From the NCBI GenBank assembly GCA_034670405.1, contig JAXDDX010000054.1, positions 930,001 through 994,000 on the forward strand: a stretch of 64,000 nt of DNA, read 5' to 3'. The translations under genes and the position numbers were made by a program. The DNA comes from Hoplostethus atlanticus (Eukaryota > Chordata > Actinopteri > Trachichthyiformes > Trachichthyidae). Below are positions 9,373 to 60,899 of the stretch, piece after piece (the stretch's first letter is position 1; each line of letters starts with the position of its first letter). Below the pieces are notes generated by a model. That model did no database searches and was not told the DNA's origin. It worked only from the letters and a program-made list of their open reading frames with translations.

Positions 9373-10755
9373 CCCCCTCAGTCATTATCAGACAGCCGTT
9401 GTGACTACCTCATGGTAAGTTTGTTTTGGCTTTGAAATGATGACCCAGCACAGCTGCCTAAGTGGGGTATGGGGTAGCAGCAGCTGCTCACTCACAGACC
9501 GCCACAGGGAGGGAGAAATGACAGGGTGGGCTTGCTTGGGAGGGGGGGGGGGTGGGGGAGGCACGGAGGCGTCGGGATCCAGGGGGGCTGCTGACTGCAC
9601 TTGCGTAGGTCTCTGTTACATCTGCGCTCAAATTCACCCGTTGGAATGTCTGGACACTCGAGTGCGGACGTGTCGTCGCGGCAGTTGGCTGGGGGAAAGT
9701 TTTGGTAATTGTTAGTAGTTTTTTTTTTCTTTTCAGTCGAGTACTACTATGCAGATGTACGCTACTGTTTGAAAGATGGGGGAGATAAAAGATAGCTCCT
9801 AAAGAGCCGCCGCGACGGTAACATTTATCGAGCGTTAGCGTCGTTTTGGGAACGTCCCGTAATTTAATTGTGTCAATAAATCCCGGAACCGCACATAAAA
9901 TGGGGGGTGGGGGGTAAGCGGAGAACGGGTTCCTCCATTTGTCTCCACCCTGCTGTGAGACATATGCGGCGGGGAGGGGAGAGAGAGAGAAAAATAAAAC
10001 ACATTTGAACAGATTGCAGGGAACATTTCTCAAGCACAAAGTTTAAAGTCTTGCCCATCAATTTCACTTTGACTCTCTCTGGTTGTGTGACCTTGGGTGA
10101 GCGATCCCACCGCTCAGATATTCAGCTGAACTGAGGGGGATTTCAGTCGGCGCGAAGGGAGCAATAAAACTTTTATTCATCCCGCTGTGACTAGAGAAGC
10201 TAATGATTCATGGATCTTAGTGTTAAAAAAAAAAAAAAAGAGGGTGGAGGGGTGATGCGGTGCAGGGACAGAGCTCAATGGGGTTTGAAAACTGTTGTCA
10301 CACGTCAATGGGCAGGTGTCTGGTGTCAAGTAACTCAATTCCAATGACTTTCCATCATGAGATTCTAGAGGCCCCTGAGATGGCTTTCACTGGGAAAGAG
10401 AAGAGTAGGCAAGACGGAGAGCTGGGTCGCTGTGGAGTGAATATAGGTGTGTGTCCCCGATCGACAGTCGCTGCTATGGTTTGACCGTTGATGTTTAAAA
10501 TAACATTTCTTTGCAGGTTGAACAGTTGTGATCAGGTACGAACCTCCATTATTTCGGCGGTGGACAAAATGAACGGCTGATATCCGATCAGCAAAACCGA
10601 TACATCTAACCCTAGCGCCTGCCAATCATGTGCAGCTGCATATTTGTGTATCTGATGATCAATGAGAAAAAAAAAGACACAAAAACAATTCCACAATAGA
10701 CAGCGTGCCCCAAGACACACTTCAGGCTCACGTGAAAGCCGAGGGTCCCACTTAC

Positions 10756-10858
10756 TTTCGGCGTCGGCGAGGTGGGGCAGCAGACCCAGGGCAAGCAGCA
10801 GTAGCAGCAGCAGCGTGGGTCTGGCTCTGTGCATGGTGGGACAGCTTGGCACCAGCAT
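10756..10858 (-). CDS. First coding exon: signal peptide of a secreted or membrane protein (possible LAR-type receptor phosphatase)
   Basis: Seen: reading leftwards, ATG at 10858 opens 34 codons plus one base before a consensus donor (A|GTAAGT, GT at 10755-10754). A second in-frame ATG at 10834 is followed by His-Arg-Ala-Arg-Pro-Thr and seven leucines, then Ala-Leu-Gly-Leu-Leu-Pro and a small-residue end (Ala-Asp-Ala-Glu). This is the basic, hydrophobic and cleavage-region layout of a signal peptide. The second ATG gives the better-shaped peptide. The intron is phase 1, typical after signal-peptide exons of Ig or fibronectin receptors. Known: PTPRD-type receptors, as I recall them, begin with a short Ala-Arg, poly-Leu peptide ending Asp-Ala-Glu-Thr, and the leftover A would fit a Thr codon. 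Inference: a LAR-family gene, most like PTPRD, acting at neuronal synapses. Other secreted or receptor proteins are possible, since no conserved domain is visible. The next exon lies outside the window. I am fairly sure of the exon and unsure of the family. Confidence 0.6.
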
Positions 10859-48712: not shown

Positions 48713-50693
48713 AACTGGCGTCAGTGAACACATCAGATTCAGGTGGGCTGACAGTTATTTTAAGTGGGAATTTCTACTTCTGTCGGCAGTATTTCAGCGT
48801 CAGATAACTGTACTTCTGACTGCAGCTCTAATTTTTAACTCTGCATACAAAATCGACAATTTCACGTTGCACAGAGACATAAAAATGCAATATTTTCCTC
48901 TGTCAATCTCGCTGTAGCCCGAGGTACAGGCCTTTTCACCCCTGACAGGCTGCCGGTGCTTTTACAAATGATTGTCAGTCACATCATTATTCTTACTTTG
49001 CACCCCAAAGACAACACCATGTATAACGCCGCGAAAAGGTAGAGAGCCGACTTGTCTGAGTCAAAAAAAAAACAAGGACTGTTGTTTTCAGCTCCTCACG
49101 CCCCAGAGTTGATACATTTATAGCCCCCTCCCCTCCCGCCTCCCCCCCCACCGTCCTGATCAAGTAAACCAGTCATCGTAAAATTAATTTTCCCATGAAG
49201 CGGGACTCACACTCTTTGGGATCACAATCTATTTTTAAGCGGATAGATTTAATCCAACGTGTCGAGACGGACGGAGATTGACTTGTTTATGGCCGCTGCC
49301 CAAGCAGGCAAGAGAGAGAGAGAGAGAGGCATGCCGAGGGCGACAAGAGCCAAGGTGATGTTACACACAACATCTCCGAGGCACGAAAAAACGTAAACCA
49401 ACACCCAACTCCAATCCTTGGCCCGAGACACCCGACGCCTCTCTCTCCTTCTCAGAATGTGTCACACATGACGGCGAGGTGCACGGGGTCTTACTTTCGC
49501 GGGACAATTAAAAGTTTAGTCGAAATCGGAGGACTTAATTGTTGCCGAGTTCATCGTAGACAAAAAAAAAACAAAAGAGGATTTTGATGACGCTGTGCTT
49601 GGGAGTGATTGTCAAGTTTGAGCGAGAGAGATTGATTGCTGTAATTAGTCTTCACTTAGCACCGGATGGGGAAGAAGAGGTTAACGTGTTGGTCGGCAGC
49701 CAGGGAAGCTGTATATAAAGCCTTGCACAACCGTCGATCTAACATGTATGCAACTCATTTTCAACGACCTACATAACGAGGAAACAAAGACGACCATAGA
49801 AGCTCCGAGTGCCCTGGGCAAAAAGCCTCCTCAGCTCCTGTCGAAGCCTGATCGTTAAAATAAACGCCCCCTGTTTCGTGGTTCCGGTTCATCCTCGTAG
49901 AGTTAACTGGGACTTGGGGAGAAGTGAAAAGAAGCTATGCTGCAATGAAAATTATTGTGAGTCATTATCTACTGACCCCCATGTCAGTTTCAGTAGGTAG
50001 GATCAGTGAGATACCCCCCCACTTGTTCCATCTCAGCCTTCTCCAAAACGATTGAAGTTTACGGGGCCATCTTTAACAGCTCCAAAAAAATGTCCATCAA
50101 ATTTCTCGAAATAGCTTGTGCAGCATAATGAACCCAGTTTTTTTTGCCAAACGTGGGTGCAAAAGTCCAGTATTTACCTCATTATCCCCTATATGTTCCC
50201 TGCTGGGCCAACTCGCTGTGTGTTGGAGTTTCGGCTGACAAGAGGGTGAGTAGATAATGAGTCACTTTTCATTTTGGGGTGAACCATTCTTTTAAAGTTG
50301 CCATTCAATAGAATATAGAGCATCCCGTCTGTAGAAGTGTTATTGTTTTGTCTGCCAAGTACACCTCTAAAAAAGGACCACAGTTCATTTTTGTAGTTTT
50401 CAATCATTTTGTAAGAGTACGGGTCACTTTTTTCAAACGGTGGATATCTTGTTTATTTTGGAACAAATCTCTGCAACTGGAGCAGTTTTTCCTCAGTTGT
50501 ATCCACCAATTATTAGCCTTTTAAAGACTGAACTTTAACAGAACACAAAACACATAAACACTTTCAAATTAAAGTGATTGGTTTCTACTGGGAGCAATGA
50601 AGAGGGCGCTATTAATCACCTCCGTTGTAATGTTGTTTAACATTAGGCTATAATACAGATCTTGGACCAGGCCAGCTGAACCAGGGTTGACTC

Positions 50694-51706
50694 TCATGTT
50701 ACCTCTGAAATAACAGGCTAACATTACTTCTGATTGGTGGAACCGACTACAGGCTAATGTTACATTACTTCTGATTGGTGGAACTGACTACAGGCTAATG
50801 TTACATTACTTCTGATTGGTGGAACTGACTACAGGCTAATGTTACATTACCTCTGATTGGTGGAACTGACTACAGGCTAATGTTACATTACTTCTGATTG
50901 GTGGAACTGACTACAGGCTAATGTTACATTACCTCTGATTGGTGGAACCGACTACAGGCTAATGTTACATTACTTCTGATTGGTGGAACTGACTACAGGC
51001 TAATGTTACATTACTTCTGATTGGTGGAACTGACTACAGGCTAATGTTACATTACTTCTGATTGGTGGAACCGACTACAGGCTAATGTTACATTACCTCT
51101 GATTGGTGGAACCGACTACAGGCTAATGTTACATTACTTCTGATTGGTGGAACCGACTACAGGTTAATGTTACATTACTTCTGATTGGTGGAACCGACTA
51201 CAGGCTAATGTTACATTACCTCTGATTGGTGGAACCGACTACAGGCTAATGTTACATTACTTCTGATTGGTGGAACTGACTACAGGCTAATGTTACATTA
51301 CTTCTGATTGGTGGAACTGACTACAGGCTAATGTTACATTACTTCTGATTGGTGGAACTGACTACAGGCTAATGTTACATTACCTCTGATTGGTGGAACC
51401 GACTACAGGCTAATGTTACATTACTTCTGATTGGTGGAACCGACTACAGGCTAATGTTACATTACTTCTGATTGGTGGAACTGACTACAGGCTAATGTTA
51501 CATTACTTCTGATTGGTGGAACCGACTACAGGCTAATGTTACATTACCTCTGATTGGTGGAACCGACTACAGGCTAATGTTACATTACTTCTGATTGGTG
51601 GAACTGACTACAGGCTAATGTTACATTACCTCTGATTGGTGGAATTACTTCTGATTGGTGGAACTGACTACAGGCTAATGTTACATTACCTCTGATTGGT
51701 GGAACT
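50694..51706. repeat. 41-bp minisatellite, about 25 units, each with an inverted CCAAT box
   Basis: The unit repeats every 41 bases (AGGCTAAT starts at 50751, 50792 and so on to 51612, then at 51672 after one truncated unit near 51643). About 25 copies of TGATTGGTGG are present. Units differ mainly at two sites: TTAC(T/C)TCTG and GGAAC(C/T)GAC. One unit has AGGTTAAT (51161). The first unit (from 50713) lacks three bases and the stretch before it is a decayed copy. Read on the minus strand each unit gives CCACCAATCAG, a close match to the NF-Y consensus. 41 is not a multiple of three, so the array is not a coding repeat. The low divergence points to recent expansion by unequal exchange or slippage. 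Confidence 0.95.
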
Positions 51707-52499
51707 AACAAGCAGCTCTTGACTTGCATACCCAAAAGGCCACCAATGTGGCAAATACAGGTCACAGCAGAATGGCTGGCTTCAGGCTGCATCTGTTTCT
51801 TCAGTTTCTTTTTACGCCATTATTACAAACACTGTGCAACTATGGATTATATGTTGTAATTGTATCTGAGACTGCCTGCTGGGACAGGGTTACGATTCCT
51901 AAGGAGTGCAGCCTGAACTCTTACATGACCTGATCGCGCCGTGACCAGAGGCGTATGCTTAGTCATCTGTTCTGGAACCGCTGAGTCATGAGTAGTCAAT
52001 ATCACCTTATTACGATGTCAAGCAAAATCAGATTCGTGATGAGGCTTCTGAACGGGACCTCGGTTTGATTTAGTTTAGTGTTGGCATGGGGTGCAATGAG
52101 CTGAAAGGCAATTAGGTCCATTAAGAGCTCGACTGGGCTGCCGTTAGCAGCCATGGTGCATGGTGTGCTGCAGCCCCCACAGAGAGAGAGAGAGGGAGAG
52201 AGAGAGAGAGGGAGAGGGATGGAGATAGATAAATAGATAGATTCAGTCAACCTCCCCCCTGACTGTCCAGGGACCGCTGACTAGTTTAGTGGTGAAAATC
52301 TGTATCTGCGTGTATGTACAGTATATGTGTGTAAGCATGTGTGTGTGGGCGTGTATCTGCACCAGATGTACTGAGCACCTGACAGGTTGGCATGGACACT
52401 CTGTGATCATGAAATTGGGATGGAGGAAGTGGAGCAGTGGAAGTGGATGACAGCGAGGGTCTGAATGAGAGCAAGAAAGACGAGGCACACGGGAGTATT

Positions 52500-52760
52500 G
52501 TGGTGAAGTGTTTTTTTCTTTAATTTCCCTGATTCCTCATTCTCTCTCAGTCTTCTCTACGCAAACGGCATGCATCCGCTGCCTTCTCCATCTCTGCCCC
52601 ATCTCCCTCCCTTCTCCCCTTCAATTTGTTTTTTCATTTTCCTTACTCTTTATCCTTTTCCCCTCTCTTGCCATCGTCATCGGTTGTCTATTCCCTCCTC
52701 GCCTCTAGACCCCTTCCTCTTGCTCTCTACCTCTCCCACTTTCTTTCCCAAAGCTGATAG
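52500..52760. repeat. Pyrimidine-rich tract
   Basis: About 260 bases of irregular CT-rich sequence (TCTCTCTCAG, CTCCCTCCCTTCTCCCC, CTCTTGCTCTCTACC). Further pyrimidine runs continue to 52800. A (GA)n run lies 300 bases to the left at 52180-52218, on the opposite composition. Confidence 0.6.
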
Positions 52761-53589
52761 TGACACCTGCCTCAACTCTCTCTCTCTCCGTTTCTCTCAT
52801 GCATTTACGCGAAGCCTCCCACCGTGGCCGATTGATCACAGCCATCGTTTGCACCTCGGCCCTCCATTTTACAGTTCAGCGTTCACGAAAAGGAGCTTTT
52901 GCCACTCCTCTGCCACCCCCCCTCACCAATACGTACACTTGTCCTGTGTCTCTCGCTCTCCCCCCTCTCCAGTGATCCCCCACTGACATTTTCACAAGCG
53001 CACCTTCATCAATTTCACACCTCCGATGCCCTTCTGTGCCAGGGCGGAAAGGAAGGAGGAGGTGGTGAATTGATGGGTGTGCGCTGACAAAGCTTAGCAC
53101 GAATTCGAAGTCAGGGGAGTGACAAAGTTCTTCAAGTGGAGGACAGATAGGACACAGAGGGACATCGATACGGCTGTCGTATTGACCAAGTCCACAAATC
53201 GATCAATAACGTGACATCAAACGAGGATTCGGGTCCAAATGCGTCCGATAATATCTATTAATAACATCATGTAGGAATTTCATTTCGGTGTCATGACCAT
53301 TGGCCTCACTGCCAAACCGCACAATGCAAGCATCTCTGCATTTGAGCTTGCCGTCTGCTGCCCCCTGTAGTTCGCATCTCCCCTCTCCTCTCTCGTTTCT
53401 TTCCTGCAACTATAAATCCAATAACGCAATAAAATGTGGCGATGGAAAAAAAGAAAAGCCACCCAGAAGGTAAACATCCTGTGTGCTCGCTTCCTCCCTT
53501 TTAGTCTTGGGAAATTAGACCGTTCTATCATCAGCCAACTGGTGCATTTATGAGCTGCTAAAGTAATTGGCGATAGCAGGGAGATCTCG

Positions 53590-55439: not shown

Positions 55440-56296
<857 letters not shown>

Positions 56297-60354: not shown

Positions 60355-60770
60355 TGCAATGGAGAGGGAGGGGAGAGTAAGACAGAGAGAGATTCAGCCA
60401 ACAATGACAGGGTAGGTAGGGTGGGATTAATGGAGGGTGGTGGAGGGAAAGAAGAGGGAGTGAGAGGAGGATGGGGGAAAAAAAGTGAAAGAGGGGAAGG
60501 CAGAGATGAGAGCAATCAAAGGTGGACACAAGCATGAAGAGGACCGCGGACGGCAGAGAAAACAAACGGTACAGAAGAACAGCAAGAAGGATGGATGGGG
60601 AAGACTGGGTAGGAAAACAGCAGCAAATACAGGGAGGGGAGAGGCAGGGCAAAGAGGAGATAGCATGGGGAGAAAAGAGAGGGAGAGAGGATAGAGAAAG
60701 CGGGGAGATGAAGGAAGAGAGGGAGGTGAAAATTGGAGAAAAGAGGGAGAAGGTGGAGGAAGAGCTTTCC
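60355..60770. repeat. Polypurine tract, irregular
   Basis: About 400 bases, almost all A and G on the plus strand (GGGAGGGGAGAG, GAGGGAGTGAGAGG and similar), without a fixed period. It is followed at 60771-60830 by mixed sequence, then (CA)n at 60854-60881 and (TC)n at 60882-60899. ORFs on both strands here are composition artefacts. Confidence 0.7.
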
Positions 60771-60899
60771 TTCCCAGCCGTGTACTGTATCCTCAAAGCG
60801 GCTTTCATCCGCCCTCACATGAGCAGCCCAGCCTGAGAAACCCCAGAAAACGACACACACACACATACACACACACACACACTCTCTCTCTCTCTCTCA

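Follow-up and report, generated by a model that had tools for sequence, protein, structure and literature searches.

Locus and structure of the tandem array

The 64,000-nucleotide stretch of DNA analysed here (the window) carries, towards its right end, a tandem array built on a 41-bp period in which a CCAAT-containing box recurs from unit to unit. Tandem Repeats Finder reports 22.5 copies at 50721-51644, at a match rate of 97% and with 0% indels; further rows from the same program, which overlap this one, carry the array on to 51704. When read unit by unit, 50721-51704 resolves into 22 full 41-bp units, followed by one that is truncated, one that is again full and one, the last, that is partial. 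The features at the locus are as follows:

50694..50720, plus strand: decayed left-edge unit, made up of collinear fragments of the unit and lacking the CCAAT core; its left end is approximate
50721..51622, plus strand: 22 full 41-bp units of five sequence types (10, 5, 5, 1 and 1 units)
51623..51641, plus strand: truncated unit 23; the step to the next box is 19 bp, which is 22 bp less than a full one
51642..51704, plus strand: unit 24 (41 bp, of which the first two come from the junction), followed by the partial unit 25, where the array ends abruptly
50730..51702 (first to last box), minus strand: 25 CCACCAATCAG boxes, NF-Y-type CCAAT, as counted in the array

Minisatellites are tandem repeats with units of roughly 10-100 bp, whose copy number is usually, though not necessarily, variable between individuals. 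The head-to-tail, highly alike units seen here in one haplotype (period 41, 22.5 copies, 97% matches) place the array in this class.

On the plus strand the box reads CTGATTGG, and both a script and direct reading of the units find it 25 times, at 50730-51692; CCAATCAG is the minus-strand reading of the same box. The step from box to box is 41 bp in 23 of 24 cases and 19 bp in the remaining one, between boxes 23 and 24. An earlier, sequence-only reading had described about 25 boxes on a 41-bp period, with a box on the minus strand of every unit. The count of 25 stands and all of the boxes read CCACCAATCAG, but they do not occupy 25 full units (unit 23 is truncated and unit 25 partial), and the left part of the interval that had been claimed, ~50694-50720, holds a decayed unit from which CCAAT is absent. 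The relationship of this edge to the array is supported by local alignment of 50661-50720 to a two-unit consensus, which scored 39.5, a value matched by 0.2% of 2000 mononucleotide shuffles. The right flank, 51705-51764, aligned to the unit no better than its shuffles did (41% of 2000 were as good). A 13-bp palindrome, TAATGTTACATTA, lies across the unit junctions in 50721-51622, and we take it to be a possible homeodomain-type site.

Within the window, the repeat is confined to this one place. All 25 occurrences of CCACCAATCAG in the window fall in the array, on its minus strand; searching with a 20-mer that surrounds the box and allowing up to 3 mismatches gives 25 hits, none of them outside the array, against an expectation of 0.00 from 100 shuffles; and when the unit was aligned to the window by blastn, no row beyond the array was listed at E values up to 1. 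A 24-base unit pattern had no exact match among viral and prokaryote contigs, which says little about fish.

Homogeneity of the units

The 22 full units differ from one another by a mean of only 1.03 per 41 bp, and just three of the 41 positions vary: 8 (T/C), 24 (C/T) and 34 (a singleton, in unit 11). Conservation is therefore array-wide rather than centred on the box. As the sequence-only reading had said, the two common variant sites, positions 8 and 24, fall outside the CCAAT core, and in fact none of the three variable sites lies in the box. As an argument for function this invariance is weak, since an array that is 97% identical gives the same picture: the probability that randomly placed variable sites would all miss the 11-bp box is 0.53 for the two common sites and 0.38 for all three, so that the constancy of the box does not speak for selection. 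Relative to the rest of the unit, the box is not preferentially conserved. A caution of wider use is that a homogeneous tandem repeat makes any embedded motif look conserved, so that selection cannot be read from an unvarying motif alone.

The C/T variation at position 24 is a CpG/TpG alternation, making or losing a CpG, and is what methylation-driven decay would be expected to give. The observed/expected ratio for CpG is 0.27 in the array versus 0.63 in the window, which, with at most one CpG per unit, says little. Nothing convincing in the way of higher-order repeats was found in the variant codes of the 22 full units at lags 1-11 (20,000 shuffles each); the best lag, 11, gave 7 of 11 matching, with P 0.018 before correction for the 11 lags.

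The CCAAT box as a candidate NF-Y site

The NF-Y site is given as RRCCAATSR in a 2024 review (PMC11802806). The sequence-only reading held that NF-Y binds CCAAT with flanks such as these, and the array box, CACCAATCA, does agree with that consensus at 8 of 9 positions, but it departs from it at position -2, which is C in 25 of 25 boxes. The array accordingly has 0 full RRCCAATSR matches, against 9 elsewhere in the window; the shorter RCCAATSR is found 25 times in the array and 15 times in the remaining 62,840 bases, where the CCAAT pentamer alone occurs 108 times. NF-Y is described as generally requiring a perfect pentanucleotide plus flanks (PMC5216769), and ~30% of bound human NF-Y sites as being one base off CCAAT (PMC3422339). 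Judging from its sequence, the array box is a plausible candidate NF-Y site, if a less than ideal one, and binding of NF-Y to the array is likewise plausible.

Chance rates for such motifs were taken from 4000 random 41-mers drawn from the window outside the array and treated as tandem units. CCAAT was present in 6.6% of these, RCCAATSR in 1.0% and RRCCAATSR in 0.5%. The specificity of RCCAATSR, 13 bits, served as the lower limit for a list of 55 factor strings, at least one of which was present in 16% of the random tandemised 41-mers; for the full set of 65 strings, which includes eight of only 5-6 bases, the corresponding figure was 37%. The chance that the unit would hold an NF-Y site is thus 1 in 100, and that it would hold a comparably specific motif for one factor or another about 1 in 6. 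Among the 65 strings, RCCAATSR was the only one to match the unit, with no motif for a partner factor.

Published spacing data bear on how such boxes could be occupied. The minimum spacing of two adjacent NF-Y trimers is put at 24 bp and the bend at ~80 degrees; in c-Fos-bound promoters, the spacing of CCAAT pairs is most often ~31 bp, and smaller maxima are seen at ~41, 52 and 63 bp; and in distal NF-YB ChIP regions, it peaks at 24 and 41 bp, which was traced to LTR12 (PMC4982600). In the array, the 24-bp minimum is satisfied by 23 of 24 steps (41 bp each), and the 19-bp step is too short. The sequence-only reading had also placed all of the boxes on nearly the same face of the DNA. This is roughly true of neighbours, but along the array the boxes drift by -34.3 degrees per unit at 10.5 bp per turn, or 720 degrees over 21 steps, and the drift is zero only at 10.25 bp per turn; the boxes therefore wind round the helix and share no common face. 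Helical phasing as a support for array-wide cooperation is ruled out by this drift of 34 degrees per unit at 10.5 bp per turn.

Genomic context

The location inside a large intron that the sequence-only reading had assumed could not be established, the only credible coding start being ~40 kb away, on the minus strand. There, a putative, signal-peptide-like first coding exon begins with an ATG at 10834, continues into a leucine-rich run and ends at a gtaagt donor at ~10755. In a scripted ranking by codon usage, this exon-like stretch (10755-10834) came second of the 12 stretches listed; the first was 60519-60833, a stretch with many charged residues for which Pfam gave no match. The exon-like stretch itself had no Pfam match and no PDB match, and a Pfam scan of 15 stop-free stretches (at least two of them overlapping) returned a single match, below the cut-off (E 0.13). 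If the exon at 10755-10834 is real, the gene continues leftward, and the array would lie ~40 kb upstream of its start codon, either in a 5′ UTR intron or in intergenic DNA.

The array itself shows no sign of coding, with 18-34 stop codons per frame in the six frames of 50721-51704 and a longest open run of 40 codons, and no RNA family matched at its gathering score in the window. Folded as single-stranded DNA, one four-unit stretch gave a z of -1.72, with 14 of 200 shuffles folding as well. Two other repeats were seen in the surroundings. A perfect dinucleotide repeat, (TC)48, occupies the 96 bp of 56198-56293 (Tandem Repeats Finder), and an inverted-repeat element of ~330 bp that looks like a small non-autonomous DNA transposon lies at 49944-50273, ~450 bp to the left of the array. 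The arms of the latter are at 49957-49987 and 50235-50265 or, alternatively, are 44 nt long and 79.5% alike (blastn).

Origin and possible function of the array

We think it probable that this is a young minisatellite, itself probably neutral both in its origin and in its persistence, whose founder unit happened to carry an NF-Y-capable CCAAT. A short local sequence would have been duplicated first; replication slippage or unequal exchange would afterwards have multiplied the copies and kept them alike. The bindable CCAAT would have been present in the founder unit by chance and inherited by all later copies. The array would most likely have no selected function, and some of its boxes may bind NF-Y where chromatin permits. 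We argue for neutrality from the conservation of the whole array and not of the box in particular, from the CpG/TpG alternation at one variable site, from the decayed left-edge unit, which lacks CCAAT, from the one inner step (19 bp) that falls under the 24-bp minimum for trimers, and from the one-in-six chance (16%) that a unit would contain some equally specific motif. On the other side, RCCAATSR specifically is found in only 1.0% of random 41-mers, the chance rate of 16% for equally specific strings is well under the 37% obtained with the looser list, and the 41-bp period coincides with that of the NF-Y-bound LTR12 repeats. A neutral minisatellite had been offered in the sequence-only reading as an alternative to its own functional proposals; we find it the better fit, the arguments for function being weak.

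An alternative is that the array is part of a transposable element, for example an LTR with tandem NF-Y repeats in its U3 region, brought in by insertion. LTR12/ERV9 LTRs, with 5-17 tandem repeats of ~41 nt that contain CCAAT and are bound by NF-Y (PMC11853044), have a like architecture, the transposon-like inverted-repeat element is only ~450 bp away, and AWTAAA polyadenylation-like hexamers occur at four places in 49700-52700 (a count made without a control). Nevertheless, we judge an origin of this kind quite unlikely. The flanks at 49300-50700 and 51705-53200 have no second copy in the window, the arms of the inverted-repeat element excepted; TG..CA ends with exact 5-6-bp target duplications are no more frequent around the array than in controls (6 versus a control mean of 5.08, with 28% of 200 controls having as many); and the sole TATAWA in 49700-52700, at 49712, is ~1 kb from the array. 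Neither in these ends, nor in a TATA box, nor in other copies in the window did the surroundings of the array thus show the hallmarks of an LTR. The array might conceivably lie in a degraded solo LTR.

Function could also be proposed irrespective of origin. If the array were a copy-number-dependent NF-Y enhancer, many boxes would be bound, the array would be nucleosome-free, and a nearby gene would be upregulated with copy number. The 25 intact boxes, their 8/9 match to RRCCAATSR, the room for adjacent trimers at 23 of 24 steps and the human precedents of the ABO minisatellite and LTR12 all favour this, but we consider it unlikely, given that the invariant C at -2 is off consensus, that conservation is not specific to the box, that RCCAATSR, alone of the 65 strings, is found in the unit with no partner motif, and that the only credible coding start is ~40 kb off. 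It is very unlikely that the host lineage has independently arrived at an NF-Y-driven, copy-number-tuned enhancer with the ~41-bp period of the primate LTR12 U3 array, in which case the spacing of about four helical turns and the 24-bp NF-Y footprint would suit dense occupancy by NF-Y. Should the array prove to be bound, it would provide a natural series of site numbers for measuring the effect of NF-Y dosage on chromatin opening, possibly outside a retroviral LTR. Most improbable in our view is a transcription-factor sink, in which the DNA of the array, or read-through RNA from it, would titrate NF-Y. For antisense LTR12 U3 transcripts over the CCAAT repeats, both binding to NF-Y and a lowering of NF-Y-dependent cyclin transcription have been reported (PMC11853044), which lends the idea a precedent, but 25 sites are few relative to the genomic pool, and outside the array this window already holds 108 CCAAT and 15 RCCAATSR in 62,840 bases.

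Comparison with known systems

The idea of an NF-Y-binding tandem repeat is already embodied in two human systems, ABO and LTR12/ERV9. In the literature searched, no paper brought intronic minisatellites, enhancers and transcription factor binding sites together in teleosts, and none did so for NF-Y, CCAAT, tandem repeats and satellites in zebrafish, which does not imply their absence in print. The human ABO minisatellite, ~4 kb upstream of the start codon, contains a number of CBF/NF-Y motifs that depends on the allele, and higher reporter transcription goes with its four-repeat forms (PMC2988417); binding is reported in the title of Kominato 1997. Our array resembles it in being a short tandem repeat with CBF/NF-Y motifs. 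However, ABO has one or four repeats and published binding, whereas the array has 25 boxes that are candidate NF-Y sites and an uncertain distance to a gene.

The likeness to the LTR12/ERV9 U3 region, with tandem CCAAT repeats and a period of ~41 in both, is one of architecture. LTR12/ERV9 repeats are located in a retroviral LTR, include GATA and G-rich MZF1-type motifs and fall into four unit subtypes; in the array, by contrast, LTR hallmarks are not above control, the GATA string has no match and the units are near-identical. In its 41-bp period, high homogeneity, decayed edge unit and truncated inner unit, the array is like ordinary vertebrate minisatellites, and it differs from them in that its unit contains an NF-Y-type site, as do ~1% of random units.
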